Shown: one piece after another, positions 2,052 to 52,577 of the stretch
How positions within the stretch are numbered: position 1 is the first letter of the stretch
How the letters are laid out: each line of letters starts with the position of its first letter
NCBI GenBank assembly: GCA_029260215.1
Contig: JAJDDQ010000030.1
Location: forward strand, 1-64,000
Direction: 5' to 3'
Length of the DNA: 64,000 nt
From: Phycisphaerae bacterium
GTDB lineage: Bacteria; Planctomycetota; Phycisphaerae; UBA1845
Notes under the pieces: model-generated
What the model was told of the DNA's origin: nothing
The model's input: the letters and a program-made list of their open reading frames with translations, nothing else
Databases searched by the model: none
Program-made: the position numbers and the translations under genes

Positions 2052-3266
2052 ATGACAAAAAGATGTTCATTGCGAAGTTTTCGTCAACCGTCAGTGCTTG
2101 CGGAGCGGTGGTTGGTGTTGTCAGCCGTGGTGCTTTGTGTTGCGGTGGCGAATCGCGCCGTCGCGGAGGTTCCGCCGGGTTTCGAGATTGTTCACATCAC
2201 GGACAATCCGAACGACTACTCGCGCGTGCCGAAAATCAATAATTGTGGCGAGGTGGTGTTCGACACGTGGATTAATTCGGGGCCTGGGGAAATCTTTCTC
2301 TACGACAACGGCCGCCTCGCACGTATCACGAACGACAGCACACACGATGCTTGGCCTGATTTGAACGCCGACGGGACGCTGGTTTGGACCACCTTTCCCG
2401 ATGGAGCCGAGGATGGTTTGATCGTGAAATTTGAAGCTGGTGAGTTGTCGGTAATCGGCCCAGGGATGAGTCCCGTCATCAATAACGAGGGCCAAGTCTC
2501 GTGGAGTCGTTTCTCCCCGATACCGTGCGCGTTTCCCGCGTCGATAAACACGTTTGATGCTGGCTCTGTAGATGTAGTGTTCGACGATGGTTTTTCCAAT
2601 CAGAGCATGTCGATCAATGGTCATGGCGATATGGTTTGGATTCGATTCGATTTTTGCGCGGTGCCTTGGACCTCGCAAGCCATGCTTTACTCGCAAGACC
2701 AGGCAATCAGCTTGTTTTCAGAGCAGGATAATCCGCGGGGACCGACGATTAACAATGCCGGATTGGTCGCCTGGGGCGACAATAACGGGATAGAAATGTG
2801 GCAGGGCGGCGAGTCGTTCGTCCTGACTGATTGGGGCTTCAATCCCAAACTCAATGAAGCTGGGGATCTTCACTTCATCAGATGGCATGAAGACACCGGC
2901 ACATGGCAGGGTTGGCTGTTTATCTCCAACAACTCCGGTCGCGTTACTGATGGCGAGTTTGTCCAACTCACAAGCGACTCGTTTTGGAACACGGACGGCG
3001 ACCTTAACGATTATCGGGAAGTAGCTTGGCAGGCCAAGGATTTTCCAGAATCGGACATCTACTTGATGAGGCGTGTTCGAAACGGAGATTCGGACATGGA
3101 CGGCGATGTCGATCTCGACGATTTCGCCAAGTTCACGAATTGCATCGTCGGGCCGATTTCAACTGATGGGCTTTGCGAATGCCGCTTCCTCGACCTCGAC
3201 CACGATCGAGATGTCGACTGGGCCGACTTCAGGTCATTCCAATTGCTGTATAACGGAAACCAATAA
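2052..3266 (+). CDS. Secreted TolB-like propeller protein with C-terminal EF-hand pair (paralog)
   Basis: A 404-residue tandem paralog of the gene at 764. The ATG at 2052 gives MTKRCSLRSF followed by a signal peptide almost identical to its neighbour's (LVLSAVVLCVAVANRAVA). The first 60-odd mature residues are nearly identical to the neighbour even in DNA. The middle propeller blades have diverged strongly, and the last 120 residues are similar again, ending in two calcium loops (DSDMDGDVDLDD, DLDHDRDVDWAD). This mosaic pattern suggests recent duplication with diversification or gene conversion. The 49-bp gap to the upstream gene fits co-transcription. Function unknown beyond secretion and likely calcium-stabilised C-terminal interaction. 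Confidence 0.75.
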   Translation: MTKRCSLRSFRQPSVLAERWLVLSAVVLCVAVANRAVAEVPPGFEIVHITDNPNDYSRVPKINNCGEVVFDTWINSGPGEIFLYDNGRLARITNDSTHDAWPDLNADGTLVWTTFPDGAEDGLIVKFEAGELSVIGPGMSPVINNEGQVSWSRFSPIPCAFPASINTFDAGSVDVVFDDGFSNQSMSINGHGDMVWIRFDFCAVPWTSQAMLYSQDQAISLFSEQDNPRGPTINNAGLVAWGDNNGIEMWQGGESFVLTDWGFNPKLNEAGDLHFIRWHEDTGTWQGWLFISNNSGRVTDGEFVQLTSDSFWNTDGDLNDYREVAWQAKDFPESDIYLMRRVRNGDSDMDGDVDLDDFAKFTNCIVGPISTDGLCECRFLDLDHDRDVDWADFRSFQLLYNGNQ

Positions 3267-9346: not shown

Positions 9347-9625
9347 ACCAGCGGCAGCCGTCCGCCGCCGAGAAGTACAGTCAACATCTAATTCCTGCAC
9401 CCACAATGCTTTGCGCCGAAATTTGTCCCGGTTTTACGCACTTTTGTTTGGTCGCCGAGCTGTGACGGTATACACTGGGGAGTCCGATTATCTCGAAATA
9501 GAGAGGATCGTGTCGGCCCGAAGGTCGCCGGGCTGATCGTTGTTCGCCATCGTGGGATGGAGAGATTTCACGAATACCGGGCTGACTTCTCAAAAACAAG
9601 AGCGATCGCGGTGCAGGTAAAAAAC

Positions 9626-11938
9626 ATGACGCAACGCGGTAGAGCACAAATTGGCGCGAATCTGGTGGTCGGCATCCTGTTGGCTGCAACCGCTGACATC
9701 GCGATCGGGCAAACGGCAAACACGGGGCAAGGGCGTATCGCCCTGCTCGAACGGGCGAAAGGTGTGTTCGGCCTGCGCGATGCGGGGTTGGCCTCTCTCG
9801 CCATCGACAACCGTCCTGAAAAAGCCCAACGGGTTCGCGTACCGTTGGCCAACGCGGAATACACGCTGGACATTCAACCGCACTCGGTTCGCGCAGCCAA
9901 CTACGAGGTCCGCTACTACTTCGCGGACGGCACGTACGTTTCAGCCGAACCCGACCCTGTGCGCACGTTCCGCGGAACGGTGGACGGTATCGAAGGCGCA
10001 ATCGTAGCCGGCTCCATGCTGGAAGACGGCATGCTGGCTGTCATAGATTTCCCCGACCACACGCGCCTGTGGATCGAACCGCTGAGTGCGCGCGTCGAAG
10101 GTGCAGCCGTAAGCGACCATGTTTTGTACTGGGGTAAGGACGTCGTTTCCGGCGGCGGATCGTGCGCGACCGAAGCCAACGCAGCAGCAGCAGCCGTCGG
10201 CGGCGAACAGTCGCCCGAGGGCGGCGGCGGGTGCGAAGGTTCCATTTGCGTTACGGAGCTGGCCTGCGATTCAGACACCGAGTACTTCGACGATTGGGGC
10301 AGCCAGGTCGAATCGCGTATCAATTCCGTTACCAATGTCATGAACGTTCAGTACGAACGCGACGTCGGGATCACACATCAAATCACAACGCTGATCGTTC
10401 GCCCCGAGACCGATCCATACACCTCGAACATGAGTAATACGCTGTTGTCACAGTTCCGAACGCATTGGCTGACGGAACACGACGACATCATTCGCGACGT
10501 AGCTGAACTTTTCACCGGACGCAACATCTCAGGCTCGGTCATCGGCCAGGCGTGGACGATCGGCGGCATCTGCACGACGAGCGGGTTCTGCTACGTTCAG
10601 TCGGATTGTTGCGGTTCGTTTTCGTGCGTAACCGATCTGTCCGCCCATGAGCTTGGACACCTGTGGAGAGGTTTCCACTGTAATTGCTTCGGTTTTACGA
10701 TGAATCCGTCGATCACGTGTGCCAACCGATTTCATCCCGAGGAAAACATTCCGGGCATCATCGCACATCGAAACTCGCGCACCTGCCTGTCCGACGTGAC
10801 ACCCACGGGGGTTTTTCCGGTCATCGACTCCTTTGAAACCCCAATTTTGGACAACGCTCAGTGGCTCAACGCGGGCGTGGAAGTCAGCGAGATGGGCGCG
10901 GGCGAACCAAGCCCGCCGTTTTCGATCGACGTGCATGGCCCCGGGCGTATGGAAACCGGTTTTCTCGACGCGTCCGATGTCCCCGAAATTCTTGTGGACT
11001 ATTGGTGGCAGCGCGCCGGCAGCTTCGGGCCGGGTGGCTCACCTGAAGCGGGCGAAGACCTCGTCGTCGAATACCGCAACGCCGACGGTGATTGGATCGA
11101 ATTCGCTCGACACCTCGGCGACCCCGGTGACGGCGGCGACCAGGAACCGTTCGAGCGCGAATGCATCACGCTTGGCCCCGATGCGTCCAGCGGCCTGTTC
11201 CAGGTGCGCTTCCGCGTGATCGATGCGGAGGTCGGAGACCATTTCTTCGTGGACGACGTCCGAATAGTCGATGCCACCCTCAACAACTGCGATTCCGACC
11301 AAACGCCGCCCGAAATCGTTCACGCGACCGGTTTGCAGGGGGAAACCACCCCATTCAGCGGTTTCATCGACCCGCGCAGCGAAAGCACCGACGGGACCAA
11401 TCTTGACCGAGGCCTCACGCAGCTCGACATCGTTTTTTCCGAGCCGGTTGAGCAAATTGGGGGAGGCACCCTATCGCTGGACTCCTTCGTGGTGACTGAG
11501 ACCGGCGGCGGGACTCCGCCCGCGGTTTTGGCATTGCTGACCACGGACATGCCCAGAATCCGCATGACGCTGAGCAAGCCCATCACCCCCGGTGAATACA
11601 CCACTATTCGGGCCGTCGTGCAGGACACGGCTGGTAATCCGATCGCCAATTCTGGTAGTCTGGGGACGGAGGATGAACCGGACCGCATCGACATCGGGTT
11701 CTTGCCTGGTGATATCGATCAGAATGGCGTGGTAGGCCCTGTTGATGTGCTGCGTTATCGGCAGATCCTCAACGAGCTTGTCGCGCCCGAACAGGGCGTC
11801 CTCACGGATTATCTGGACATGGGCAGGGACGGGTTTGTGGACCCGTTCGACGTTTTGATCTTCAGGCAATTGATTAACGGAACCGTTCCCGCAACCCAGC
11901 CGTGGGCGGGGGCGACTTTGAACAACTCCAGGCCATAG
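9626..11938 (+). CDS. Secreted reprolysin-like (M12B-type) metalloprotease with dockerin-like C-terminal module
   Basis: About 770 residues. The frame opens at 9557, but the ATG at 9626 gives a tidy signal peptide (NLVVGILLAATADIAIG). Residues about 50-160 resemble a reprolysin propeptide. The catalytic domain (about 205-400) carries HELGHLWRGFH at 341-351, a metzincin zinc site with Arg instead of the usual Gly at the eighth position, and a later Met (FTMNP) as possible Met-turn. A jelly-roll-like region (405-555) follows. The last 210 residues hold the shared module: SGFIDPRSES, a strand-rich domain, calcium loops at about 696-707 and 731-742, and the terminal ...W-x5-LNNSRP. Probably a calcium-dependent extracellular or surface protease. 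Confidence 0.8.
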   Translation: MTQRGRAQIGANLVVGILLAATADIAIGQTANTGQGRIALLERAKGVFGLRDAGLASLAIDNRPEKAQRVRVPLANAEYTLDIQPHSVRAANYEVRYYFADGTYVSAEPDPVRTFRGTVDGIEGAIVAGSMLEDGMLAVIDFPDHTRLWIEPLSARVEGAAVSDHVLYWGKDVVSGGGSCATEANAAAAAVGGEQSPEGGGGCEGSICVTELACDSDTEYFDDWGSQVESRINSVTNVMNVQYERDVGITHQITTLIVRPETDPYTSNMSNTLLSQFRTHWLTEHDDIIRDVAELFTGRNISGSVIGQAWTIGGICTTSGFCYVQSDCCGSFSCVTDLSAHELGHLWRGFHCNCFGFTMNPSITCANRFHPEENIPGIIAHRNSRTCLSDVTPTGVFPVIDSFETPILDNAQWLNAGVEVSEMGAGEPSPPFSIDVHGPGRMETGFLDASDVPEILVDYWWQRAGSFGPGGSPEAGEDLVVEYRNADGDWIEFARHLGDPGDGGDQEPFERECITLGPDASSGLFQVRFRVIDAEVGDHFFVDDVRIVDATLNNCDSDQTPPEIVHATGLQGETTPFSGFIDPRSESTDGTNLDRGLTQLDIVFSEPVEQIGGGTLSLDSFVVTETGGGTPPAVLALLTTDMPRIRMTLSKPITPGEYTTIRAVVQDTAGNPIANSGSLGTEDEPDRIDIGFLPGDIDQNGVVGPVDVLRYRQILNELVAPEQGVLTDYLDMGRDGFVDPFDVLIFRQLINGTVPATQPWAGATLNNSRP

Positions 11939-12040
11939 AATACTCGTGGTCGGCACTACGGTTCGCGGCATGCGCGCCGGACGACGCGAGGGCAGAGGGT
12001 CTGTCGAAAAGAACGGGTGAAAGGGCAAAGGAACAAGAGA

Positions 12041-14947
12041 ATGAGTATGAGCCGATCGTCAGTCAGTACGCTCGCGGTGTTGATCGCGGGTGTCACGCTT
12101 GGAATCGTTTTGAATTCGTCGCCCGCGTGGGCGGCGGAATCCGATACCCTGCCAGCCGCACGCTATCAGAAGGACGTGAGCGACGCTTTCGGACTTTACG
12201 ATTGCGACGTCGCCCGTCTCGACGTCCAGCACGATGCAGGCCCCGCGTTCGCTCAGCAATTTGTCGTACCCTTTGACGGCGAATCCTACGAGCTGGACAT
12301 CTACCCGCACTCCGTGCGAAGCCCCAATTACAACGTGCTTTATCAAATGCCGGACGGCACGTATGAGTCCGTCGAACCGGGGCCGGTAACGACGATTCGC
12401 GGCATCGTCGTGGGCCAGCCGGGCAGCACGGTCGCGGGTGGTTTCGGCGAGAACGGCCTGTCGGCGGTGGTCTCGCTGGCTGACGGCAGCCGATTCTGGT
12501 TTGAACCGGTGGCACAGAAAGTAGCTGCACAAAACGCGAGAGACTACGTCATCTACGCGGAAGAGGATGCAATTCCGTCCGGCAAGTCGTGTGGTGCGGA
12601 AGCGTTGCATACGATCGTACCCGCCGGCGGTGAACCCGAAGGCCAGCCGCCGGAGGGGTTCGGGTGCAACGGCGACATTTGCGTGGCAGAGCTGGCAATC
12701 GACTCCGACGTTGAATTCTCGAATGATTGGGGCGGCGGTGTCGAAGCGCGGGTCAACAATATCATCAGCGCCATGAACCAACCTTACGAGATGCAGACCG
12801 GCATCTCCCACCAAATTTCGACCATCATCGTTCGCCCCAACGAGCCAGACCCCTACGGTGACAACATCACGTCCTCCGGCCAAATGCTCAGTGCCTTTCA
12901 AAGCCACTGGGTATCTCAGCAAGGAAACGTCCAGAGAGACGTAGCCCAGATGTTCTCAGGCAAGAATCTCGGGAGTTCTCCGGGGGTTGCGTGGCGTTCA
13001 ACGGTTTGCGACCTCGGCCTGTTCGGCGCGTACAACGTGGTCGAATCGGATTGCTGCGGCGCGGGGTTCAACGGCGCGGTGAATATTTCCGCCCACGAAT
13101 TGGGGCACAGTTGGAGCGCTCAGCACTGCGGCCCGGTCGGCGGTTGCGACCCCGGCTCGTTCCCCCCCGGCGGATGCAGTTGCCCATCGACCATCATGCG
13201 CTGCACGGTGAGCACTGCCACGACGTTTGATGATAGCTGCTCCTCGCCTTCCATCATCGCATTTCGCAACAGCCGCACCTGTCTAAGCGACCTCGCTCCG
13301 ATGACAACGTTCCCCTTCAGCGACACGTTCCCAACGGCACCGATCGATCCGATCAAATGGTTGGTCGAGGGCGCAACGGCGGTAAACTTCGGCGCCAATG
13401 AGCCAAGCGCACCACTTTCCATGCAAATCACCGGCCCGACGCGCGCGACAACCGGTTTCCTGGATGCATCAAACATCGAATACGTCGGATTGGAGTACTG
13501 GTGGCAGCGCAGCGGTTCGTTCGGGCCGGGCGGTTCTCCCGAACCCGGCGAGGATCTTCTGATCGAAGTCAACACCGGCGGCGGCCAGTTTGAAGAAGTA
13601 CAGCGTCACCTGGGCGCAGGCCCGGACGACTCCCCCTACGAGCGCGTCTGCATTCTTCTTCCCCCGGAGCTTTCACACGAATCGCTACAAGTACGATTCC
13701 GCATGACCTCCGGCGGCGCGGGCGATCGCTTCTTCATCGACGACGTCAGTTTCGCCGATGGGCACGCTTTCCTCGGAATTGTCGACCAACCCCAAAGCGA
13801 CCAGACCTGCATCGGGGGCACAGCCGATTTCAGCGTGCTGGCAGACGGGGAAAGCCCGTTCTCCTACCAATGGCAACTGGACGGCACGAACATCCCCGGA
13901 GCCAACGATGCCTCACTGCAAATCTCGCCCGTCCAGGCTGAGGATTTCGGCATGTATTCAGTTATCGTCTCCAACGGCTGCGGTGACGTCGCGAGTACAC
14001 AAGCCCCGCTCATCGAAGTGTCCGAGGTCATGATCACAACCCAGCCGCAGAATCAATCCATCTCGGCGGGCAGCACGTTGTTCCTGACAGTGACCGCCAG
14101 CGGAAGCACCGGGCTGCAATGGTTCTTCAACGACAATCCCATCCCGGACGCTACCAGCTCATTCCTGTTCATCTCAAACGTGCAATGCGCGGATCAAGGC
14201 TGCTACCACGTCGTCGCTGGCAACGACTGCAGTGAACTGACATCCGAAGTCGCCGAAGTCACGATCGACGGCGGATGCGGCCCCTTGAATTGCGAAGACT
14301 CCACACCGCCCGCCATCATTCACGGCAGCGGATTGACGGGCGAAACGGTGCCCTACAGTGGCTACATCGATCCGCGCAGAGAAAGCTCGAACGGCGTCGA
14401 TTTTAATGAGGGCATTGCCCAAACGACGATTCTCTTCAACAAGCCGGTTGAGAGTGTCGGCGGCGGGGCTTTGTCGCCCGCCGATTTCGTCGTCACCGAA
14501 ACCGGCGGCGGAACACCGCCGACCGTTACAGCGGTCGATGATTCTCAAATGCCGCTGGTCGTGCTTACCTTCGACCGTCCGATAACTGTCCAGGAATACA
14601 CCACGGTCCAAGCCGTCGTGCAGGACACGCTCGACCCGCCGACCGTCATCAACAACGCGGGCAACCAAGGCCCCGGCGTCGACGAGGCAGACCGCGTCGA
14701 TATCGGATTCCTGCCCGCGGACGTCGATCAAGACGGACAGGCTGGTCCGTTCGACCTTCTGCGCTTCCGCCAGATCGTCAACGACCAATTCACGCCAACG
14801 CAGGGCGTGCAAGCGGATTTTGTGGACATGGACCGCGACGCAGCAGTCGGACCATTCGACTTGTTGGCCTTCCGCCAGTTGGTCAACGGCGTGACGCCGT
14901 CCACACAATCGTGGGCAACACAATCGCTTAACAACGCGCGACCCTAA
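12041..14947 (+). CDS. Secreted reprolysin-like metalloprotease with two Ig-like domains and dockerin-like C-terminal module
   Basis: About 968 residues, a tandem paralog of the protease at 9626. A GTG at 12017 is in frame, but the ATG at 12041 has AAAGGAA upstream and precedes a signal peptide (VLIAGVTLGIVLNSSPAWA). The catalytic site HELGHSWSAQH lies at about 352-362, again without the canonical Gly. A Cys-rich segment with STIMRC as likely Met-turn follows. After a jelly-roll-like region come two Ig-like domains (about 578-665 and 668-745; QPQSDQTC...YQWQLDG and QPQNQSISAG...LQWFFND), which the sister lacks. The final 210 residues are the shared module with two EF-hand-like loops and the terminal W-x5-LNNARP. 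A strong terminator ends the unit. Confidence 0.82.
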   Translation: MSMSRSSVSTLAVLIAGVTLGIVLNSSPAWAAESDTLPAARYQKDVSDAFGLYDCDVARLDVQHDAGPAFAQQFVVPFDGESYELDIYPHSVRSPNYNVLYQMPDGTYESVEPGPVTTIRGIVVGQPGSTVAGGFGENGLSAVVSLADGSRFWFEPVAQKVAAQNARDYVIYAEEDAIPSGKSCGAEALHTIVPAGGEPEGQPPEGFGCNGDICVAELAIDSDVEFSNDWGGGVEARVNNIISAMNQPYEMQTGISHQISTIIVRPNEPDPYGDNITSSGQMLSAFQSHWVSQQGNVQRDVAQMFSGKNLGSSPGVAWRSTVCDLGLFGAYNVVESDCCGAGFNGAVNISAHELGHSWSAQHCGPVGGCDPGSFPPGGCSCPSTIMRCTVSTATTFDDSCSSPSIIAFRNSRTCLSDLAPMTTFPFSDTFPTAPIDPIKWLVEGATAVNFGANEPSAPLSMQITGPTRATTGFLDASNIEYVGLEYWWQRSGSFGPGGSPEPGEDLLIEVNTGGGQFEEVQRHLGAGPDDSPYERVCILLPPELSHESLQVRFRMTSGGAGDRFFIDDVSFADGHAFLGIVDQPQSDQTCIGGTADFSVLADGESPFSYQWQLDGTNIPGANDASLQISPVQAEDFGMYSVIVSNGCGDVASTQAPLIEVSEVMITTQPQNQSISAGSTLFLTVTASGSTGLQWFFNDNPIPDATSSFLFISNVQCADQGCYHVVAGNDCSELTSEVAEVTIDGGCGPLNCEDSTPPAIIHGSGLTGETVPYSGYIDPRRESSNGVDFNEGIAQTTILFNKPVESVGGGALSPADFVVTETGGGTPPTVTAVDDSQMPLVVLTFDRPITVQEYTTVQAVVQDTLDPPTVINNAGNQGPGVDEADRVDIGFLPADVDQDGQAGPFDLLRFRQIVNDQFTPTQGVQADFVDMDRDAAVGPFDLLAFRQLVNGVTPSTQSWATQSLNNARP

Positions 14948-17037: not shown

Positions 17038-17111
17038 ATCATTGTGCGTTCGCTCGTACCATCCGATAATAAGATGGGCGATGTTTGGGTTCCGGTACGA
17101 AAGCGCACCCG

Positions 17112-20090
17112 ATGGGCCAAGCGATGACACGATCTCTGCACGCGACAATTCTGGCGACGGCAGCTACGTTGCTCCTTCTCGGCTCGGGCTGCCCCATGAG
17201 TCCGGGCGAATCGAATGGCAACGGGAACACCGGCGGCACCGGAACCGGCAATGGCAATTCAAACGGCGGCACCAACGCAAACGGCAGCGACAGCAACAGT
17301 AATGGGAACTCCAACGGCTCGGGCACCGATACGACGGCCCAGACACCCGCGCGGTCCAGTTGCGGCGACGCGGCCATCGCCTGCTACGACGAAATGGCCC
17401 AGCAGCCCTCCGGCTTGGCTGACTTCAGGCCTACAAGCCGTTGGCCCGATACCGACCTGACCTGGCGCGTCGCGAATTTTCTTCCGCAATTCTCCGAACA
17501 AGAACATCTGGAAGCGGTCGCCCGCGCATTCGCCCAATGGGACGCAGCCTGCCTCCTGAGCCTTCGACGGGCTGACGGCGACGTGGCGGACATCAACATC
17601 AGCTTCCAAGAAGGCCTGCACAACGACCCGTACCCCTTCGACGGCGCGGGCAACGTGCTGGGGCATTCCTTCTTCCCCGGCACGGATCAGGCTGGCACGA
17701 TCCACCTGTGCAGCGCGGAACCCTACGCCCTGCAACCCGGCGAGGATCAATTCGACTTGTTCACCGTCGCCCTGCACGAAATCGGTCACGCCCTGGGACT
17801 GGAGCACAGCCTCGACGCTGACGCAGTCATGGCACCGAGCTATCCGCGCGACGGCAACCAGCGTCTGACACAATCCGATGTCCAGGCCATCCAGGACCTC
17901 TACGGCAGTCCGGACGGTCGACGACGGCGCAAACTCTCCCGCAGGCCCGGTGATTTCGTGAATCAGCCCGACCTGCTCGCGCTGGACGACCCCGACAGCG
18001 ACGGCGACGGCATCCCCGATTCCTTCGAGGTGTATGTTCTTGGCACCGATCCTTTCACGGCGGATTCCGATGCCGACGGCTCGAACGATTTCACCGAAGT
18101 GTTCGTCCTGGGCACGCCCGTCAACGTCAGCCTCGAAGGTGACGATCCCGACGACGACGGTGTGCCCACGGATATCGAGCTGATCTTCGGCACCGATCCC
18201 AACGTGGCGGACACCGACGGCGACGGCCTGTCCGACGAAGAGGAATTGTTCTATTACGGCACGCTGCCGCTGGTCGCGGATTCGGACGGCGACGGTTTGA
18301 ACGATTCGCGCGAAGTGTTCGATCTGGACACCGACCCGCTCAACCCCGACACGGACTTCGACGGCATTCCCGACGGTCAGGACAACAACGTTTTCGATCC
18401 CGTCGATTCGGACAATGACTTACTGCCGGACGGCGTGGAGACGCAGTTCATCGGGACCGATCCGAACAACCCCGACACCGACGGCGACGGCGTGAACGAC
18501 GGCGAAGAGGTCATTTTCTTCTTCACCGACCCGCTCAACCCCGACGACAACGACGACGAACTCCTCGACAGCGACGACGACGGTCTGCCCGACATCATCG
18601 AGGAAACGTCCACCTTTACCGACCCGTTCAACAACGATACCGACGGTGATGGCATACTCGACGGCAACGAAGTGCTGGAGTTCACCGACCCGCTCGATCC
18701 CGACTCCGACAATGACGGGCTGCTCGATGGCGAGGAAATCAACCAGTTCGACACCATCCCCTTCGATCCGGATACCGACGGCGACGGCCTGCGCGACGGC
18801 CCGGAAGTGCTGCAATTCATGACCGACCCCAACGACCCCGATACCGACGGCGACGACCTGCCCGACGGGGGTGAAATCTTCCTCGGCACGGACCCGCTGG
18901 TCATGGATACGGACGGCGACGGGCGAACCGACGGGCTTGAGGTTTCTCAAGGCACCGACCCACTGTCGCCGGATGACATCGTGGACAACGGTCCCGACTG
19001 CTCGTTCCTGCCGCAGTTCGGCGACCCCGATCTGGACAACCTGCCCAATCTGATCGAATGTCAAATCGGCACCGACCCGTTCAACAACGACACCGACGGC
19101 GACGGACTGCTCGACGGCGAGGAATTCTTCTTCACCGGGACCGATCCGCTGGACCCCGACACGGACGGTGACGGTATCGACGACAACTTCGATACGGACC
19201 CCAACAACGGACCGATAGGCGGCAACACCGACGGATGCCTCGGCCTGCTGTTACCCGATGGCGATTTCGATGGCGACAATCTGACAAACAGTGAGGAGTG
19301 CAACCTCGGCACGCTTCCGAACAACGTGGACACTGACAACGACGGCCTGCGTGACGGTCAGGAAGTGCTCATCTTCAATTCCGACCCGCTCGACCCCGAC
19401 ACAGACGGTGATGGCCTGACCGATGGCGACGAAGTGCTCGTCACGCTGACCGATCCGACTCTGTTCGACTCTGACGGAGATGGCTTGGACGACGGCTCGG
19501 AGATCAACGAATTCGGCACGGACCCCAACCAGTTCGATACCGACGGCGACGGCATCCCCGACGGCCAGGATTCTGACACGTTCGGATCTACCAGCGGCAG
19601 CGGTACCGATACTGGTACCGGCTCGGGCGTTTTCATCGACTCTGACGACGACGGCTTGACGGACGTTCGGGAGAATCTGCGCGGCACGGACCCATTTCTG
19701 ATCGACACCGACGGCGACGGGCTGACCGATGGGCAGGAGGTTCTCCTGTTCAACACCGATCCCCTCAACTTCGACTCCGATTTCGACGGCGTGTCCGACT
19801 TTGAGGAGCTCGCGTTCGGAGAGGATCCATTCAACCCCGGAACTGGACCCGCCCCGCCGCCCGACGACACGGACCGCGACTTCCTGCTCAATTCCGACGA
19901 ATTGGCGATGGGGACGAACCCGAACGACCCCGACACCGACGCGGACCTGCTCCTCGACGGGGACGAAGTGCAGTTTATCGGCACGGACCCGCTTCTGCGC
20001 GATACCGACTTTGACGGCATTCTCGATGGCGTGGAGGTGCTTATTTTGGGAACGGACCCGACGAACCCCAACGATCCGCCGGGCTTCTAA
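17112..20090 (+). CDS. Matrixin-like metalloprotease lipoprotein with a long thrombospondin type 3 repeat array
   Basis: About 992 residues (an ATG at 17124 is an equally good start). A lipoprotein signal ([10 protein letters not shown]) is followed by an Asn/Gly/Thr low-complexity linker. The catalytic domain contains [11 protein letters not shown] at about 222-232, the full metzincin zinc site with Gly, then VMAPSY as Met-turn, resembling the M10/matrixin type. From about residue 290 to the end run roughly 28 calcium-binding units of the DTDGDGLxDGxEV...GTDPLNP kind, each about 22-26 residues and highly acidic. This is probably a rod-like calcium-loaded stalk. There is no C-terminal sorting signal, so the lipid anchor holds it. 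Strongly biased DNA makes long false frames on the opposite strand. Confidence 0.85.
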
Positions 20091-23589: not shown

Positions 23590-24171
23590 TCACCGGCGAC
23601 GACGCATCACTATCACGCCGCCGAAAGCCAGCAGGCTCAGCGCCGCCGGCTCGGGAGCCAGGCGAAGTTGAATCGAATCCCCTTCGAATGGAATCCAAGA
23701 GGAATTGTCATCCCACAATTCCGGTCCGGTCGAAACGTATCCGTCCCCCGGGTTTTGGAATTCGATTTTGAACGTCGCCAACAGCAAACCGTCGTCTGGT
23801 ACGGACAGACCGCCCAAAAGGGTCGCGACAACCGGTTCGGGCAGTGTATTGTCGAAAAACCAGATGTTTTGGTTCCCGAATAGACCAGGATTCCAGGCGA
23901 AATTGCTTAGCGTGAAGCCTGGAAACTCGAGGACGTCCCTTGCAACTATCCCGTCAAAACCGAACCGCGCGCCTTGAAGAAGAGTAGTTTGGTCAACTAG
24001 AATCCTGATCGAAAGTTCGTACTCACCCGGCTCCGGCAGGCAGATGACCTCCGGCGCCGGATCGCAGTCATACTCATACGCGTACTCGATAATGGCATCG
24101 GCACTCAGTCTTGTTTGCAGCAACCCCAATGCTACGAATGAGAAAGCTGTCAACCTGAGCACGCCAGCCAT
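23590..24171 (-). CDS. PEP-CTERM exported protein (divergent member of cluster)
   Basis: About 193 residues from the ATG at 24171 (an in-frame TTG lies at 24189). A signal peptide (LTAFSFVALGLLQTRLSA) precedes a beta-rich domain with ILVDQTTLLQGARFGFDG, SNFAWNPGLFGNQNIWF and LLLATFKIEFQNPG. The tail APEPAALSLLAFGG...MRRRR is a textbook PEP-CTERM signal, normally cleaved by exosortase/archaeosortase-type enzymes. It shares the fold landmarks of the five upstream genes but has a longer Cys-containing N-terminal part (CDPAPEVICLPEPGEY) and is more diverged. It is last before a terminator, 45 bp after its neighbour, so probably in one operon. Confidence 0.8.
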   Translation of the reverse strand: MAGVLRLTAFSFVALGLLQTRLSADAIIEYAYEYDCDPAPEVICLPEPGEYELSIRILVDQTTLLQGARFGFDGIVARDVLEFPGFTLSNFAWNPGLFGNQNIWFFDNTLPEPVVATLLGGLSVPDDGLLLATFKIEFQNPGDGYVSTGPELWDDNSSWIPFEGDSIQLRLAPEPAALSLLAFGGVIVMRRRR

Positions 24172-24216
24172 CTTTACAATTCCCGGCAATCGCCCGTTAC
24201 GGGAACGGGGCAGGCT

Positions 24217-24804
24217 TCACGCGTTCGCCGCCGTTCTCCGGCGACGACGCATCACCGCCACGCCACCGAGCACCAGTAGAGCCAGAGTCGCTGGCTCGGG
24301 AATAACATTGACCGAAAAAGCATCGCCGATGGCAACTACCGGGGCAGGAATACCGTCCCAGAACTCAGGTCCGGTACTCACATCCGACCGCCCCAAATCG
24401 CTGCCTAAATTGACCTGAAGTGTGGCGAGCAGCAAACCTTCAACCGGAATCGGAATAGCGTAAAATACGAAGTTAGTAGTACGCGGATAGGGTAACGTAT
24501 TCCCCGCGTACCAGCCGTTCGGGAAGAAGGACACGGGATCCCACGCGAAATTGCTCAGGCTAATGTACTCAAATTCAAGGGTACCACCGTTGTCCACGCC
24601 ATTAAAGTTGAACCCCAGAATGTACAACTCCGTTGTCGACCCAGGCCACGCCCAGATCGATATTGTGGCACTGTCATTGGGTGCGATATCGATGATGTCG
24701 CCATTATTCGGATCAAGATCGACATCGCTCTCGTACGTTAGACTGAAGTCCGCCGACGCGCCAGTCACGACCATACCAAGTACCAAGAGTGAACGCTTCA
24801 ACAT
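24217..24804 (-). CDS. PEP-CTERM exported protein, tandem paralog 1
   Basis: About 195 residues. The ATG at 24804 is chosen (AAGGAGG nine bases upstream, then MLKRSLLVLGMVVTGASA as signal peptide). The mature domain begins DFSLTYESDVDLDPNNGDII and keeps the family landmarks SATISIWAWPGSTTEL, SNFAWDPVSFFPNGWY, LLLATLQVNLGSD and DVSTGPEFWDG. The tail IPEPATLALLVLGG...RRRRR is PEP-CTERM, with four extra residues (AANA) after the basic stretch. The Asp-rich N terminus might bind calcium. No enzyme motif is present. Confidence 0.82.
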   Translation of the reverse strand: MLKRSLLVLGMVVTGASADFSLTYESDVDLDPNNGDIIDIAPNDSATISIWAWPGSTTELYILGFNFNGVDNGGTLEFEYISLSNFAWDPVSFFPNGWYAGNTLPYPRTTNFVFYAIPIPVEGLLLATLQVNLGSDLGRSDVSTGPEFWDGIPAPVVAIGDAFSVNVIPEPATLALLVLGGVAVMRRRRRTAANA

Positions 24805-24903
24805 CTCCCATGCCTCCTTCCGTGGAAGCCTATTCGCGAGGCTCTTTCCGGGCCGGGCCGCGATCGCAGAACAATTCATCCGCCGAATTCAAGACCACGC
24901 CGA

Positions 24904-25473
24904 TCACCGGCGCCGACGCAGCACCATCACGCCGCCGAGCGCCAGCAGGCTCAGCGTCGCCGGTTCGGGAATGATGTTCATGGAGAAGGTGTCGACGACG
25001 ACCACCGGCGATAGATTACCGTCCCAGAACTCAGGCCCCGTGCTCACATCCGACTGCCCAAAATCGCTGCCGGAATTGACCTGAAGCGTTGCGAGCAGCA
25101 AGCCCTCCACCGGAATCGAAATAGTGTGTGAGCTAAAGTTGATGGCACGCGGATAGGGTAATTCGTTCCAGGCGAACCAGCTATTCGGGTCGCCGAGCGG
25201 CGCGGGAGCCCATGCGAAGTCGCTCAGACTGATGTATTCAAAATTGAGGACACCACCTTTATCGACGCCGTTGAGGTTGAATCCGAGACCCTGCAACTCC
25301 GTGGTCGATCCAGGCCAAGCCCAGATCGATATCGTGGCGCTCTCATTGGGCGCGAGATCAATGATGTCGCCGTTATTCGGATCGAGATCAACATCGCTCT
25401 CGTACGTAAGACCAAAGTCCGCCGACGCACCCGCCGCGATCGTACCCAGCACCAAGAATGAACACCTAAACAT
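24904..25473 (-). CDS. PEP-CTERM exported protein, tandem paralog 2
   Basis: About 189 residues from the ATG at 25473 with AAGGAG upstream and the signal peptide MFRCSFLVLGTIAAGASA. The mature start FGLTYESDVDLDPNNGDII and most of the body match paralog 1 closely, including GSTTELQGLGFN and STGPEFWDGN. It ends NIIPEPATLSLLALGG...LRRRR. The WFAWNELPYPRAINF segment replaces the WFTDNTLPQPRGANF found in other members, so exchange between copies is patchy. Same likely fate: exported, anchored or released through an exosortase-type system that is not encoded here. Confidence 0.82.
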   Translation of the reverse strand: MFRCSFLVLGTIAAGASADFGLTYESDVDLDPNNGDIIDLAPNESATISIWAWPGSTTELQGLGFNLNGVDKGGVLNFEYISLSDFAWAPAPLGDPNSWFAWNELPYPRAINFSSHTISIPVEGLLLATLQVNSGSDFGQSDVSTGPEFWDGNLSPVVVVDTFSMNIIPEPATLSLLALGGVMVLRRRR

Positions 25474-25556
25474 CTCCCAATTCTCCTTCGACAAAACCCG
25501 TTCGCGAAGCTCCGTCAGAACCGCGCCCGTAAGGAAGCGGTCTTCTCTTCCGCCGA

Positions 25557-26123
25557 TCAGCCACGGCGACGAACCATCGCCAAACCGCCGATGGCCAGCA
25601 AAATCAACGAAGACGGCTCTGGATGGACTAGAGTGAAAGAATCACCAATGGCAAACACCGGATTAAGCGCGCCGTCAAAGATCTCAGGCCCCGTACTCAC
25701 TTCCGCAAATCCTAACCCGGTTACCGTGACTTGCAGCGTGGCCAACAGCAAACCATCGGCTGGTATGGTCACCGCACCAACGAAATTGGCGCCGCGCGGT
25801 TGAGGCAGCGTGTTGTCGGTGAACCAGACATTCGGGTTGCCGAACGTCGCCGGATCCCAGGCGAAGTCACTCAAACTGTACGCATCGAATTCGAGGACGC
25901 CGCCATTGTCAAAGCCGTTGAAGTTGAAACCGACACCGGCCAACTGCGTCGTGGTGTCAGGAAAAGCAGTAATCGAAATCGTGGCGGTTTTGCTCGGCTG
26001 CCCCAAATCGATGATTTCGCCGTTGCTCGAATCAAGATCGACATCGCTTTCGTAGGTCAATATGACGTCCGCTGACACAACAGCCGTTGCCGAACCAAGC
26101 ACCAGGAATAAATACCTTAGCAT
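25557..26123 (-). CDS. PEP-CTERM exported protein, tandem paralog 3
   Basis: About 188 residues. Several in-frame starts exist up to 26231; the ATG at 26123 follows AAGGAG with proper spacing and opens the signal peptide MLRYLFLVLGSATAVVSA. The domain differs from paralogs 1-2 near its start (LGQPSKTATISITAFPDTTT) but shares long stretches with paralogs 4-5, notably the DNA coding FAWDPATFGNPNVWF and TLPQPRGANF. The tail is HPEPSSLILLAIGG...VRRRG, an acceptable PEP-CTERM with Gly as last residue. Confidence 0.82.
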   Translation of the reverse strand: MLRYLFLVLGSATAVVSADVILTYESDVDLDSSNGEIIDLGQPSKTATISITAFPDTTTQLAGVGFNFNGFDNGGVLEFDAYSLSDFAWDPATFGNPNVWFTDNTLPQPRGANFVGAVTIPADGLLLATLQVTVTGLGFAEVSTGPEIFDGALNPVFAIGDSFTLVHPEPSSLILLAIGGLAMVRRRG

Positions 26124-26230
26124 CTTTCCCATCTCCTTACGTAGAAATCCATTCGCAAGGCCCATTCCATTCCAATCCACGCCGCAATCGCGGGACGATT
26201 CCATCGCAGAAATCGAGTCCACACCAATCA

Positions 26231-26821
26231 TCAGCGCCGACGCATCATCGCCAAACCGCCGATGGCCAGCAAAGCCGACGTCGATGGCTCTGGAACAATT
26301 CTGACGGTGAAACCGCTGCGGTTGCCGATCACCGGCGCGAGCGAGCCGTTGAAAAACTCCGGCCCCGTCGTAACTTCCTCAGGCCCGTGTTCGTCGAAGA
26401 ACGCTGTGACTTGCAGCGTGGCCAGAAGCAAGCCTTCGGCTGGAATGGTCGCGGCGCCGATGAAGTTGGCACCACGCGGCTGAGGCAGTGTGTTGTCGGT
26501 GAACCACACATTCGGGTTGCCAAACGTCGCGGGATCCCAAGCGAAGTTGCTCAAACTGAATGCATCGTAGTAGAGTACACCGCCATCGTCCGAACCGTTG
26601 AAGTTGAAGCCCGTACCCGCCAACTCCGCTGTCGAACCAGGCCACGCCCAGATCGAAATCGTGGCCGCATTGCCGTGATAGAGGTCTATGACATCTCCGT
26701 TGTCCGGAAAGACATCGACATCGCTTTCGTAGGTCAGCATGATGTCCGCAGATGCATCGAATGCGGTCATGCCGATTACACCCAGAACCGTAAGTAATCT
26801 TTTTCGTATCACCGCAGCCAC
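26231..26821 (-). CDS. PEP-CTERM exported protein, tandem paralog 4
   Basis: About 196 residues starting at a GTG (26821) with AAGGA close upstream; a second GTG at 26812 is possible. The signal peptide is IRKRLLTVLGVIGMTAFDASA. The mature start DIMLTYESDVDVFPDNGDVI and the landmarks WAWPGSTAELAGTGFNFNG, FAWDPATFGNPNVWF and LLLATLQVTA place it in the family. The tail is VPEPSTSALLAIGG...MMRRR. It is the first gene downstream of the terminator at 26854, so it probably has its own promoter and leads the operon running to 23590. Confidence 0.82.
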   Translation of the reverse strand: MAAVIRKRLLTVLGVIGMTAFDASADIMLTYESDVDVFPDNGDVIDLYHGNAATISIWAWPGSTAELAGTGFNFNGSDDGGVLYYDAFSLSNFAWDPATFGNPNVWFTDNTLPQPRGANFIGAATIPAEGLLLATLQVTAFFDEHGPEEVTTGPEFFNGSLAPVIGNRSGFTVRIVPEPSTSALLAIGGLAMMRRR

Positions 26822-26853
26822 CGTCCTTGAATATGGGACATTCGAAAAGCGGG

Positions 26854-26897
26854 CAAAAAAATTGAGCGGGATGCACAGCTGTGCTTCCCGCTCAATA
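26854..26897 (-). terminator. Intrinsic terminator between PEP-CTERM genes
   Basis: On the minus strand ATTGAGCGGGA pairs perfectly with TCCCGCTCAAT, with an inner GCACAG/CTGTGC extension, and a run of seven T follows. It lies about 42 bp after the stop of the gene at 26939. Confidence 0.88.
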
Positions 26898-26938
26898 GCG
26901 CTAATCAGATTCGAACGTGTGCTTAATGCACGCGTCGA

Positions 26939-27517: not shown

Positions 27518-27991
27518 CTCCACAGCCTCCATCTCTCCAAGTGCTCGCGCGGGAATCTCAAAGGGAGACGCTCTCCCCATTCTCGCCCGAGCGAGACCAA
27601 ACCTCTGTTTTAATAAGAGCTGAAATCCAGCGACCCGATCGGGTCATTCTTGAATGGGCTCAGCTCTCTCCCAAGAACCCAAAAAACTCTCTTCTCTTCT
27701 CTCTCCCCCAGGGTCGCCATCCGTCCCAAACGGTTGGCGGCTGGGCTGGTCGGGTGATTCTAGCACCCGCGAATCAGGCTTTCTCCACAAAAAGTGGAAG
27801 CCAACCCGAATTCTTGCTGCAAGTCGATAATATCGACGGGGAAAGTTGCTTTGAGATGCCTCCTCTCTCTCAAGCAGCGAGTTATCGCCGCAACCCTCCA
27901 AAGAACCTCACCGTATCTCGTATCGTGGCACCCAGCTCCCGACCGGGTGCCACGATCGTATCTCAGCTTACAAGGTCCAACAACGTCCGGA
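27518..27991. other. Intergenic region of 474 bp with one long hairpin
   Basis: It holds the leader of the PEP-CTERM gene at 27517 and the end of the gene at 27992. A 12-bp perfect stem ATCGTGGCACCC / GGGTGCCACGAT at 27922-27956 lies 36 bp after the latter's stop; it lacks a T-run but may terminate or stabilise that transcript. No coding potential was recognised in the rest. Confidence 0.5.
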
Positions 27992-29296
27992 TTACGGACG
28001 TGTGTTGTTGATGCTCGTCGACGCCCACGCGCGGGTGGACGGAGTGACACCGTTAATCGACTGACGCAAGCGGATCAGGTCAAACGGATCCGAAGCACCA
28101 TTATGGTTCATGTCGACATAATCGACACCGTTCGCACTGCACCCGTTTGCGGGCACCGTGCCGTTGTTGACAAACTGACGGAACGCGATGACGTCAAACG
28201 GATCGCTCGTACCGCCCTGGTTGATGTCGGTCGGGAGGTGCGTCACGTCGATGCGATCGGTCTCGTTCACACCAGCACCCTGGTCGCCGGAAGACGTAAT
28301 CGCGACGCCGCAATCGTTGTAAACGTCGGCAACGAGCGTGGTCCATTCCTGAAGCGTGATGTTGTTGTCCAAAACGATCTCAACCGTATCCATGCCACCG
28401 CCAACATAGCTGACGCTGGCGACTGACGGAGCGGCACCACCACCGGTCTCGCCGACCGAGAAGTTGCTCGCATCAACCGGACTCGTGCCGTCCGACTGGA
28501 ATACGTCCGTCGTGAACTTGATCGTAAACGTTGTAATGCCCAGATCCAAATCCACACCGTTGGAGCTTTCACCACGCGGATCGATATGGCCCGAGCAGGG
28601 CGACGTGTCTGCATCGTGAACGATTTCCGGTGCCGGTGTTACACAATCAGCACCAACCGTAAACGCCATCGGGTTGCCGATCACAACGTTGACCGGATCG
28701 ACAACATACGTTTCCGCAACGTCGTCAAAACTCGTGATCTGGTTGGCAAACAAGCTGCTGGGCCTGATCTGAAGTGTGTAATCGCCATCGGCCACACCAA
28801 CGGGAACGGTCAGACCGAACCCGAAATCGCAAGGAGCGGCTTCATACATGCGGACGCCGTCAACACCGTGACCGACGCCCAACGCAACGGCACCGTTCGG
28901 GAACGGTGGGAACGGATCGGTCCCCGGATTGCCGATGGTGTTCTGTCCGCCACCAAGCTGGATCAGATCGTCGCCGACGGCGGTTCCAGTGAAATCCACT
29001 GAATACCCCTGCGGCTGCGAGAAGCTGGTGACCGAGACATCCTCACCCATGATGATGGCGGTGCCAAGGTTGACCGTGCTGGGTCCGACCAATTCCAGGT
29101 CGAACGCGAAGAACGCCAACCCTTCGTTGGCTGTGTCGGTCAGATGACCGCGAATTTCAAATTCGACGCAACCGCCAGCCTCGATCGGAGCCGAGCCGTC
29201 TGTGCGGTTGATGTCTACGGTGAATGTGTCCTGCGCCATCGCGACCGTGCCAAAGCCAAGGGCCAACGCAGCGGTGAGGAATCCTGAAGCCTTCAT
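27992..29296 (-). CDS. Secreted protein with cohesin-like domain and dockerin-like C-terminal module
   Basis: About 434 residues. The ATG at 29296 has GGAGG upstream and starts a signal peptide (LTAALALGFGTVAMA). Residues about 25-210 look like a beta-sandwich (FTVDINRTDGSAPIEAGG, FFAFDLELVGPS), a cohesin- or choice-of-anchor-like fold. The last 210 residues are the module shared with the metalloproteases: SGHIDPRGESSNG, a strand-rich part, two calcium loops (DINQGGTSDPFD and DMNHNGASDPFD) and the terminal TRAWASTSINNTRP. The module lacks some residues of the others (HDADTSPCSG in place of a longer segment). It is probably exported and surface-attached; no enzyme motif. Confidence 0.75.
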   Translation of the reverse strand: MKASGFLTAALALGFGTVAMAQDTFTVDINRTDGSAPIEAGGCVEFEIRGHLTDTANEGLAFFAFDLELVGPSTVNLGTAIIMGEDVSVTSFSQPQGYSVDFTGTAVGDDLIQLGGGQNTIGNPGTDPFPPFPNGAVALGVGHGVDGVRMYEAAPCDFGFGLTVPVGVADGDYTLQIRPSSLFANQITSFDDVAETYVVDPVNVVIGNPMAFTVGADCVTPAPEIVHDADTSPCSGHIDPRGESSNGVDLDLGITTFTIKFTTDVFQSDGTSPVDASNFSVGETGGGAAPSVASVSYVGGGMDTVEIVLDNNITLQEWTTLVADVYNDCGVAITSSGDQGAGVNETDRIDVTHLPTDINQGGTSDPFDVIAFRQFVNNGTVPANGCSANGVDYVDMNHNGASDPFDLIRLRQSINGVTPSTRAWASTSINNTRP

Positions 29297-29884
29297 CTTG
29301 CCTGCCTCCATGAGCCGGAGAAACCGAATTAAATAGGTATTCAAATTGCCGACGCCCCGCGGTCCAAGGGTTCCCCCCACTTCGCAACCGCAACGCTTAT
29401 CCTACCCATCCGAACCGGACGGGTCAAGCAATTACCCACACCTCCGAACGCCTCGCCGAACGGCACACAACATCCGAGCAAGAACACACCAGCCCGACCG
29501 TGCGGCGAACGTCCAGATTATACCGAGGGAGATTGGAAACCGGTAGAAATACTCATCAATTGTGGTGAGCACCCCAAAATGTCCTCTCTCCCCATACCGT
29601 ACCTCACCCGTTATACCGAAGCGGATGGCCCCATTCAAGCAAAAAACACCTTTGGGGGCGTGAAAAACCGCATAATTTCCTATCTGACCGAAGCCTGGAA
29701 ACTGTCACTGTAACTCCCCCGCTTCTGCGCTAAAAACACGCATTTTTTATCGGGAGTTGGGTCGTGAACGGACCAGCCCAAACCTCGGCGATCCATGGGA
29801 ATTGCCAACGGGCATCGCCTGAAATAGGGTGTTTGGGGCGGCTTGAGCCTGTTGGCCGCCCTGGAAACCCCGGACGGACTCCAA
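29297..29884. other. Divergent intergenic region of about 590 bp
   Basis: It separates the secreted protein on the minus strand from the kinase-like gene on the plus strand and must contain both promoters. It is somewhat richer in A/T than its surroundings. I see no gene, strong hairpin or recognisable RNA in it; a TTG at 29843 is an alternative start for the plus-strand gene. Confidence 0.5.
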
Positions 29885-49919: not shown

Positions 49920-52577
49920 CTATGGACGCGCGGCGTCTAGCTTCGCGCCGTTCCACGACTGCGTAGCTGGGCTTACACCGTTGATCAACTGCCGGAAGGC
50001 GAGCAAATCGAACGGTGAGATATCGTTGTTGCGATCGAGGTCGACGTAGTCCTCCTCGGACCCCGCGCCCGGGCTCAGCAAGCCGTTAACGATCTGCCGG
50101 AATCGGAGCAGGTCGAACGGTGTCACGTCGCCGCTTTGATCGATATCAGCCGGTAGGAACGCGACATCCACACGATCGGTTTCGTCGGTGCCCGGGCCTT
50201 GATTGCCGTTGTCCTCGATAGGGACGCCGGCGGCGTCCTGAACGGCTGCGATGATTGTGAACCAGCTGCCTGGCGTCAGGTTCGTGTCGAGCGTGACGAC
50301 AACGTTTGGGTTGTTCGCGGCGTCGACGGAAATCACGGACGGCGCGGGCGCTCCCGTCGAATTTACGCTGAATGCGGTCGCATCGAGCGCTCCTCCGCCG
50401 TCGTTGAATACTTTCTCGGTAAAGCGGATGGTGAGTTGGTCGACGCCCTGGTTCAGGTCGGCTCCGTTGTCGCTCTCGCGGCGAGGATCAATATAGCCGC
50501 TGAACGGACTGGTAGACTGACCGAGGTTGTGAACGATTTGCGGGGGCGTTGTGTCCTTGTTTTCGCATTCGATGACGGTGACTGAAAAATCGTCAATCAA
50601 TGCTTCGGTGATGTTGGCGTCGGGACAATCCTCAGTGCTGAACCGCACCGTGAGCGTGTCGGCCGGCACCATGGTTTCGCTGAGGCGGTGTTCGGCCACG
50701 ATCCACGCGAGCGTGAAGCTGAAGGGAACCTCCTCCAACGTTACCCAGGTTTTGCCACCGTCGCCGGAGACCTCCACAATCAGTGTCGTACTCGGGCCGC
50801 CCATCAGGTTGGCTCCGATGAACCATCGGGCATAGCTGATAACGGCATCATTTCCACCGATGAAAATGGAGGGGGAGGTCAGCCTGACCGGACCGCCGTC
50901 GACATCCGACGCCTCAAGCGGTCCACCGGGTTCAGCCTGTTGAGTGAGGTAGCAGAGCGTGCCGTCACCAAAGTCATCGTCGGGAACGATTTCGATGCCG
51001 GGCGGATTGAACAGCACCGGAACCGGGTCCACACGCTCCCAGGCACCCATAGCGTCGATGACCGACGCACAGTCATCGACGGAGGTGGTCCATCCCATGT
51101 CCGTCTCGAAATCATCGAAGAATACGGTCGTCAGGGCGGAAATTACCTCGGCTTGATAATCGTTGACTGGGGCGTCTGGAGGGTCGATTACGGTGACGTT
51201 TCCGAGCGTCTGGACCGACACGTAATAGGTGTATTCGGAGCCGCACAATGCAGGTGGCAGAACAGCCTCGAACAGGTCGCCACCAACGGGTTGGAGCGGA
51301 ACCTCGACGAAGTCGCCGTTGTTGATGGCCACGAAAACGCTGGCTGATTCGGGGTTGGGCGCGTCGCAGAGCGAGAGGATCTCGACGGTGAGCGTGGCTC
51401 CATCCAACGGATGCACCGTTTCGACAAGACCCTCGGGATAGCCGATCGAAACGTCATCGTTTACCGAGAGAACGATCAGACCGCTGGTGATGTCGCTGAC
51501 CAGAATTCGGTCCTCGCCGAGAAAGGGGTAAATACCCCATGCCCCATCGAAACCGAACGCCGGTCCATCAAACGTGTCGAAGTGGGCCCGCTCGATAAAG
51601 GTACCGGTCGTTTCATCGATGTCGAAAATGAATGCGCCAAGTTGATACCAAGAGACGTAAACGCGCGTCCCGATGACAACGGGGTTGTGGGCGGAGATAG
51701 CTTCGGATTCATCGAAACTGACGGTATCGCGAAGGACAACATCTACCCCGCCGCCTTCGCCCGGAGTGATCTCGTAAAGTCGCATGGGGCCGCCCGGTCG
51801 CTCTTCGGTCACGACGGCCCAGCGACCGTCTGCTGATGGCCAAACGGCATGCGTGCTGGGGCTTGGGTCGGACTGACCGAGCAGGACTGGGGCTTGATTC
51901 GCGATGTCGGAAACATCATAAACGAACAATCCGCTGTTCCATGCCGCGACGTAGAGGATGTCATCCTGAACCGTCATGTCGTGAACGAAAGCGTTGCCGG
52001 CTTGAATCAACCAGAGATTGGCCTCGATTTGCTCGGGCGGGTTGTTGCGGTCGAACGTTGTGAGATCGACAACGGCCAAGTCCGGACTGTTGCTGTTGGC
52101 AAAGAAAAGGTAGCCGTTGTGGTAGAACGTATTGTGAACCGTTGACATAGTCGGCGTCGATATCCACGACAAATGAACGGGGTCGAACGGGTCCGAGACG
52201 TCCACGATTTCGACGCTATCATTGGGGTCCGCGTCGAGTGAGATGAAGAGCAGACCATCGCCGACCTTAACGTCCTGAGCGGATGCAAACGTACTCGGTG
52301 GCGGCACGACCCATTCGAGGACTTGCATCGGATTGAACGGGTCGGATATGTCGATGAAATGGACTTTGTTGTCACCGAACTCGGCCAGGTAGGCCACGTC
52401 GCCGTCGGCCCAAATGTCGCTTATGCCGCCGTCGTCCTCGTTCCATTGGCTGGTCTGGATCAACTCGATCGGGCACTCATTTCCGGCGAGCGCGGGGGGG
52501 CCAAACGTGATCGCGATCATCAATCCCGACCTGAAGGTCCACGGCAAGGATTTCGCGATTGCTTCGCACCACTGCAT
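49920..52577 (-). CDS. Secreted LVIVD-repeat beta-propeller protein with dockerin-like C-terminal module
   Basis: 885 residues; ATG at 52577 with GGAG eight bases ahead and a signal peptide (GLMIAITFGPPALA). Residues about 40-400 contain LVIVD-type propeller repeats (VHFIDISDPFNPMQVLEW, VEIVDVSDPFDPVHLSWI, LAVVDLTTFDRNNP, LFVYDVSDIANQAP). Middle beta domains follow, including a jelly-roll like that of the metalloproteases (FFDDFETDMGW, WFIGANLMGG, DDFSVTVIE). The last 210 residues are the shared module: SGYIDPRRESDNG, DIDQSGDVTPFD and DLDRNNDISPFD calcium loops, and the terminal TQSWNGAKLDAARP. Likely a surface protein; no enzyme motif was seen. Confidence 0.8.
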   Translation of the reverse strand: MQWCEAIAKSLPWTFRSGLMIAITFGPPALAGNECPIELIQTSQWNEDDGGISDIWADGDVAYLAEFGDNKVHFIDISDPFNPMQVLEWVVPPPSTFASAQDVKVGDGLLFISLDADPNDSVEIVDVSDPFDPVHLSWISTPTMSTVHNTFYHNGYLFFANSNSPDLAVVDLTTFDRNNPPEQIEANLWLIQAGNAFVHDMTVQDDILYVAAWNSGLFVYDVSDIANQAPVLLGQSDPSPSTHAVWPSADGRWAVVTEERPGGPMRLYEITPGEGGGVDVVLRDTVSFDESEAISAHNPVVIGTRVYVSWYQLGAFIFDIDETTGTFIERAHFDTFDGPAFGFDGAWGIYPFLGEDRILVSDITSGLIVLSVNDDVSIGYPEGLVETVHPLDGATLTVEILSLCDAPNPESASVFVAINNGDFVEVPLQPVGGDLFEAVLPPALCGSEYTYYVSVQTLGNVTVIDPPDAPVNDYQAEVISALTTVFFDDFETDMGWTTSVDDCASVIDAMGAWERVDPVPVLFNPPGIEIVPDDDFGDGTLCYLTQQAEPGGPLEASDVDGGPVRLTSPSIFIGGNDAVISYARWFIGANLMGGPSTTLIVEVSGDGGKTWVTLEEVPFSFTLAWIVAEHRLSETMVPADTLTVRFSTEDCPDANITEALIDDFSVTVIECENKDTTPPQIVHNLGQSTSPFSGYIDPRRESDNGADLNQGVDQLTIRFTEKVFNDGGGALDATAFSVNSTGAPAPSVISVDAANNPNVVVTLDTNLTPGSWFTIIAAVQDAAGVPIEDNGNQGPGTDETDRVDVAFLPADIDQSGDVTPFDLLRFRQIVNGLLSPGAGSEEDYVDLDRNNDISPFDLLAFRQLINGVSPATQSWNGAKLDAARP

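Follow-up and report, generated by a model that had tools for sequence, protein, structure and literature searches.

Four proteins encoded in the window (the whole 64,000-nucleotide stretch of a Phycisphaerae genome that was analysed) end in the same module, which by sequence comparison is a Big_5/CopC-type Ig domain followed by a type I dockerin and a conserved tail. We consider it likely that the module works as a C-terminal docking dyad, through which a common receptor of the cohesin type would capture the carriers outside the cell, with a C-terminal cohesin-fold domain as the candidate. Planctomycetota encode many dockerins whose role is unclear. For one class of them, evolutionary evidence here points to a receptor that is shared and genome-specific, and because the contact residues and a candidate partner can both be named, the question is directly testable.

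Anatomy, carriers and distribution of the module

An earlier note on this DNA had described the shared module from the letters alone, and both its placement and its order of motifs are right: the modules of the three other carriers are 42–57% identical to the first over ~214 residues, and 62 columns are invariant among the four (Table 1). The N-terminal parts that it had distinguished hold in Pfam for the reprolysin (PF13688), reprolysin plus Ig and LVIVD proteins, but not for carrier 3, whose supposedly cohesin-like part matches no Pfam family, even with the threshold relaxed to E ≤ 5. Its estimate of ~210 residues covers the shared span but left the conserved tail undescribed. By the signal peptide heuristic, carrier 1 probably starts at 9626. 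In the numbering of carrier 4, used as reference, the Ig-like half comprises residues 1–136, the dockerin half 137–196 and the tail 197–214.

Table 1. Coordinates of the module carriers and their parts (window positions, except for the last row)
Feature	Position	Strand	Basis
Carrier 1: reprolysin-type metalloprotease, module at end	9557..11938	+	PF13688 E 5.5e-15; PF00404 above cut-off
Carrier 1, Ig-like (Big_5/CopC-type) half	11288..11701	+	Alignments; Big_5 E 0.036
Carrier 1, dockerin half and C-terminal tail	11702..11935 (tail 11882–11935)	+	PF00404 23.1 bits, cut-off 22.9; alignments
Carrier 2: reprolysin and two Ig domains, module at end	12017..14947	+	Pfam
Carrier 2, Ig-like half	14288..14710	+	Alignments
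Carrier 2, dockerin half and tail	14711..14944 (tail 14891–14944)	+	Alignments, Pfam
Carrier 3: unknown N-terminal domain, module at end	27992..29311	-	N-terminal domain without Pfam match
Carrier 3, Ig-like half	28238..28645	-	Alignments
Carrier 3, dockerin half and tail	27995..28237 (tail 27995–28048)	-	Alignments, Pfam
Carrier 4: LVIVD/choice-of-anchor-B beta-propeller, module at end	49920..52577	-	LVIVD E 1.5e-7; TIGR04312 81 bits, below its cut-off
Carrier 4, Ig-like half	50157..50564	-	AlphaFold2 model; Foldseek
Carrier 4, dockerin half	49977..50156	-	PF00404; HMM match to PDB dockerins
Carrier 4, calcium loops (within dockerin half)	loop 1 50112–50147; loop 2 50007–50042	-
Carrier 4, C-terminal tail, invariant Trp204 and Pro214	49923..49976	-	Column statistics
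Second-module loci in own genome	L216–L234; example L233:512-3451

The Ig-like half matches Big_5/SWM weakly, and Foldseek aligns it with the S-layer protein SbsC, CopC and the Ig domains of LdtMt2. The dockerin half is closest to type I and finds cellulosomal dockerin structures in the PDB by HMM matching; PF00404 matches 70 of the 76 modules at E ≤ 0.01 over both F-hand repeats, with many carriers above the curated cut-off. The dockerin-like loops that the earlier note had joined to a preceding beta domain are standard F-hand loops: in the column statistics, positions 1, 3 and 12 are D (100%), D (90%) or N (9%), and D (100%) in loop 1, and D (98%), D (63%) or N (35%), and D (100%) in loop 2. 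The tail follows the consensus ATQxWxGxxLxxxRP-COOH over ~18 residues, with Trp and the terminal Pro in 100% and Thr in 98% of aligned members, some of the last residues being missing in a minority of copies. AlphaFold2, run on 76 sequences, models the whole module with pLDDT 97.4 and pTM 0.92, and predicts Ig domain, dockerin and tail to form a single rigid unit. No family among the Pfam and NCBIfam models covers its full length. Big_5-type domains are often mere spacers, and the module could on this ground be read as a passive calcium-stabilised spacer or stalk that has no specific partner; as its conserved surface residues are symmetric and it sits exactly at the terminus, we give that reading hardly any credence.

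A profile of the four modules recovered 32 copies from the own genome (4.97 Mb, 88 contigs) at E ≤ 1e-37. All 32 end 0–13 residues before the stop codon, no more than 4 in 31 cases, and in relatives (named Phycisphaerae and Planctomycetota MAGs, 80 loci) the module lies ≤10 residues from the stop in 83 of 83 closed ORFs, so that no copy in either set sits away from the C terminus. Neither observation by which the earlier note would have been refuted, a named family over the full length or equally frequent non-C-terminal copies, was thus made. Signal peptides, which the earlier note had proposed to seek on every carrier, were recognised in 29 of the 32 by a simple hydrophobicity/charge/AxA heuristic; the three frames without one are probably cut or mis-started. 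The module follows reprolysin-type proteases, subtilisin, LVIVD and SBBP propellers, FG-GAP, beta-helix and glucose/sorbosone dehydrogenase-like parts, the N-termini of 114 carriers group into 21 clusters, and Pfam scans of the 32 carriers returned no glycoside hydrolase family. The own genome contains 115 PF00404 stretches in all; the other dockerins differ, in the cases read, by the pattern GDxDxDGDVDxxDFxxF...C and by having neither an Ig partner nor the tail. Tandem paralogues at 464–2002 and 2052–3266 (plus strand) of the window end in ordinary planctomycete dockerin-like loops, again without Ig domain or tail.

Two further observations concern peptidases in the window. A putative lipoprotein metalloprotease at 17085–20090 (plus strand) has ~19 thrombospondin-3-like DxDxDGxxD repeats and matches models of the myxobacterial proteins CglD and MtsD below cut-off. 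At 33085–33174, three tandem 30-nt units (CTTTGCrAGGGGGGAAr...) are read in frame close to where a peptidase ORF begins; they may reflect either a wrongly called start or the insertion of a repeat.

A scan of the phylum found the module in 1 of 392 genomes (7 candidates scored per genome), and of the 30 genomes positive in a scan of the order, 29 are members of the window genome's own family. Within the scope of these scans, the module is almost confined to one family-level lineage. Among 51 genomes of the family, eight hold 12–45 copies and the rest 0–6, counts on which MAG incompleteness bears.

A genome-specific code in the calcium loops

Variation within the dockerin half is symmetric between the repeats and specific to the genome. 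The repeats agree at loop position 11 in all but two of 76 modules, either both carrying F or both lacking it (42/1/1/32; Fisher p 4e-19). Position 14 shows the same pairing, and the states at the two positions follow the genome. In an unbiased scan, all 214 columns were ranked by mutual information with genome across 138 modules of 8 genomes. The eight most discriminating columns (150, 185, 153, 183, 188, 148, 156 and 191; excess 0.48–0.98 bits, z 14–27) all lie in the dockerin and make up four equivalent pairs of the two repeats, 148/183, 150/185, 153/188 and 156/191, that is, loop positions 9, 11, 14 and 17, which we take to be the known cohesin-recognition face of dockerins. Positions 20, 21 and 23 and one tail column rank next, and the Ig half contributes nothing to the top 15. 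At positions 9-11-14-17, the code reads x-F-L-R in the own genome, N-L-L-K in OFTM321, Q-L-L-R in Dive96, Q-V-I-R in G433 and S-L-F-R in OFTM371 and IP29b, and most paralogues within a genome agree on one code, in both repeats alike. The most distinct case is the Lys at position 17 of OFTM321, which is present in 19 of 19 first loops and 18 of 19 second loops, versus Arg in nearly all other copies. Symmetric, species-specific recognition residues are an established hallmark of type I dockerins (Pages 1997, as cited in PMC12484212).

The Ig halves are hardly, or not, grouped by genome: their tree requires 47 changes against 46.7 after shuffling, and 83 against 91.7 in a second analysis. Most copies thus arose before these genomes diverged, and the shared code changed in parallel along many lines. 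The RecA tree of the eight genomes resolves only the grouping of IP29b with OFTM371, and PEP carboxylase and RpoB, as species markers, are missing in several genomes. Gene conversion among paralogues might leave such a code as a by-product, with no shared receptor, and the dockerin part outside the code does cluster by genome to some extent (69 changes versus 92 shuffled). Such an origin is nevertheless very improbable, because it would require the conversion of single codons at matching sites in the two repeats, and the columns interleaved with the code argue against it: the equally variable columns 146, 154, 166 and 170 show a genome-signal excess of -0.00 to 0.11 bits, and the highly variable columns 146, 154 and 158 carry 0.05–0.16 bits.

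The strict C-terminality and the invariant tail, which is the same across genomes, would also fit conserved machinery. The module might then be a sorting or secretion signal like the T9SS C-terminal domains or PEP-CTERM, in which a machine reads the Trp...Arg-Pro C-terminus and the dockerin fold serves as a handle. We judge this improbable, as the genome-specific, repeat-symmetric variation lies in the calcium-loop face and not in the tail; unlike PEP-CTERM, the tail lacks both a hydrophobic segment and a basic end, and no NCBIfam sorting model matches any of the 32 modules. Taken as docking, the symmetric code implies that nearly all copies of a genome face the same partner surface, and the carriers very probably all dock onto one class of partner. 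The code is thus positive evidence for the shared receptor of a portable attachment or assembly module, as the earlier note had supposed, with the receptor a candidate and the surface location presumptive.

Ends that resemble known sorting signals were observed on other proteins of the window. About six small paralogues arrayed in tandem at 23590–27580 (minus strand) have PEP-CTERM-like ends (PEP...GGVxVMRRRR), which makes it probable that exosortase-type sorting exists alongside docking. The endonuclease/phosphatase-like protein at 35783–37366 (minus strand) ends in VPAVSEWGLIVAILLMLVMGTLLAHR, which is similar to a sorting signal of the IPTL/XrtH type (weak match to NF033207, E 0.006).

A candidate receptor with a cohesin fold

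A Pfam cohesin search of the own genome gave one weak place, which led to a second C-terminal module. PF00963 itself matched only three sub-threshold stretches there, in a search that may pass over divergent cohesins. The own genome showed no classical multi-cohesin scaffoldin, its cohesin-fold domains occurring singly at C termini. The second module has ~245 residues and consists of a cohesin-like domain behind two dockerin-like loops that contain Cys, and nearly all copies lie at the very C terminus of metalloprotease, LDL-B, DUF4215 and other secreted proteins (contigs C84, C21, C73, C2 and C53 among others). Its AlphaFold model is of low confidence as a whole (pLDDT 59.6), the beta part lying mostly at 55–91. 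The top Foldseek hits are almost all cohesins (E 2.6e-7, TMt up to 0.76), and the Pfam cohesin score of 21.6 bits falls below the 24.1 cut-off.

Generic PF00963 did not track the copy number of the docking module across 20 genomes; therefore, the specific cohesin module was used instead. It occurs in 26 copies in the own genome, 56 in OFTM285, 40 in OFTM5, 13–14 in G413/G417 (taken to be IP29b/OFTM371), 13 in G433, 9 in Dive96 and 5 in OFTM321, the matches being remote in OFTM321, OFTM371 and IP29b. All eight genomes with at least 10 docking modules have at least 5 second-module matches, and the other 43 genomes of the family average 1.1. The copy numbers of the two modules correlate moderately among these related genomes (Spearman 0.53). 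This candidate for the co-occurring receptor that the earlier note had proposed to look for is abundant in most carrier-rich relatives.

The dyad may be genuine and yet dock on a different surface protein, either cohesin-like or unrelated, that escaped detection. In OFTM321, 34 docking modules stand against only 5–8 remote cohesin-module matches, so the second-module cohesin, in its present form, cannot be the universal partner. In addition, the dockerin-like loops of the second module have their own genome code at the equivalent pairs 21/59, 24/62 and 28/66, reading H..N in OFTM285 and A..L in OFTM5, two genomes that share the first-module code; hence, at least two recognition systems coexist. 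This variant of the main explanation, whose probability overlaps with that of the docking dyad itself, falls a little short of an even chance, as the co-occurrence in the eight carrier-rich genomes and the strong fold match of the second module to cohesins count against it. The cohesin-fold domains that end about two dozen own-genome proteins remain the best receptor candidate for the dyad, as plausible sockets with a putative pairing. A wider scheme, which we hold to be rather doubtful, would give each genome two separate, privately coded cohesin–dockerin systems, in which the Ig–dockerin carriers attach to the C-terminal cohesins of the second class and the Cys-rich dockerin loops of the latter attach to a further receptor, placing much of the secretome in a cell-bound extracellular complex unrelated to cellulose.

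Proposed mechanism and relation to known docking systems

In the docking mechanism that we favour, the carriers would be exported by Sec, the dockerin would bind two Ca2+ and fold in a calcium-dependent manner, and a shared cohesin-type receptor would capture the carriers outside the cell, presumably at its surface. Contact with the receptor would be made via residues 9/11/14/17 (and 20/21/23) of either repeat and in either of two 180-degree orientations, a dual binding mode. The Ig domain would pack rigidly on the dockerin and act as a stabiliser like the X module of XDoc dyads, while the Trp...Pro tail is probably an intramolecular clasp. If true, proteases and adhesin-like proteins would have a large assembly system of their own, built on the same principle as the cellulosome. 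With dozens of paralogues recoded in parallel, it would also serve as a clean natural experiment in changing interaction specificity and supply protein engineering with new orthogonal docking pairs.

In cellulosomes, the X module stabilises the dockerin of XDoc dyads (PMC5141474). Like the dyads of C. thermocellum CipA/CipB and R. flavefaciens CttA, the present module has, by its predicted structure, an Ig-like domain packed directly on a C-terminal dockerin. It differs in that the dockerin is closest to type I, in its extra conserved tail, in its dozens of diverse non-cellulase carriers and in the Big_5/CopC likeness of its Ig half, which matched no cellulosomal X-module family. With the type I dockerins of cellulosomal enzymes (PF00404) it shares two F-hand calcium loops and symmetric, species-specific recognition residues (PMC12484212), but loop positions 10 and 18 are here almost invariably Pro and Gln, the code lies at 9, 11, 14 and 17, and the dockerin is always fused to the Ig domain and tail. 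In contrast to the cellulosome, dockerin-bearing glycoside hydrolases are absent from the 32 carriers scanned with Pfam. For the dockerin of R. flavefaciens ScaA, an aromatic/Pro contact between the dockerin ends, an intramolecular clasp, has been found to stabilise the fold (PMC5934362), whereas in the putative contact of the present module Trp and Pro both belong to the C-terminal tail. The closest published idea is the 'planctosome' hypothesis for freshwater Nemodlikiaceae, in which planctomycete cohesin/dockerin proteins likewise accompany M12B reprolysin-like peptidases with no role in cellulose use (PMC6461901). It was proposed from a few proteins, whereas one genome here encodes 32 docking and about 25 cohesin-module proteins, together with a code. 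What is new is thus the cohesin–dockerin principle in a new variant, related to both the XDoc dyads and the proposed planctosome.
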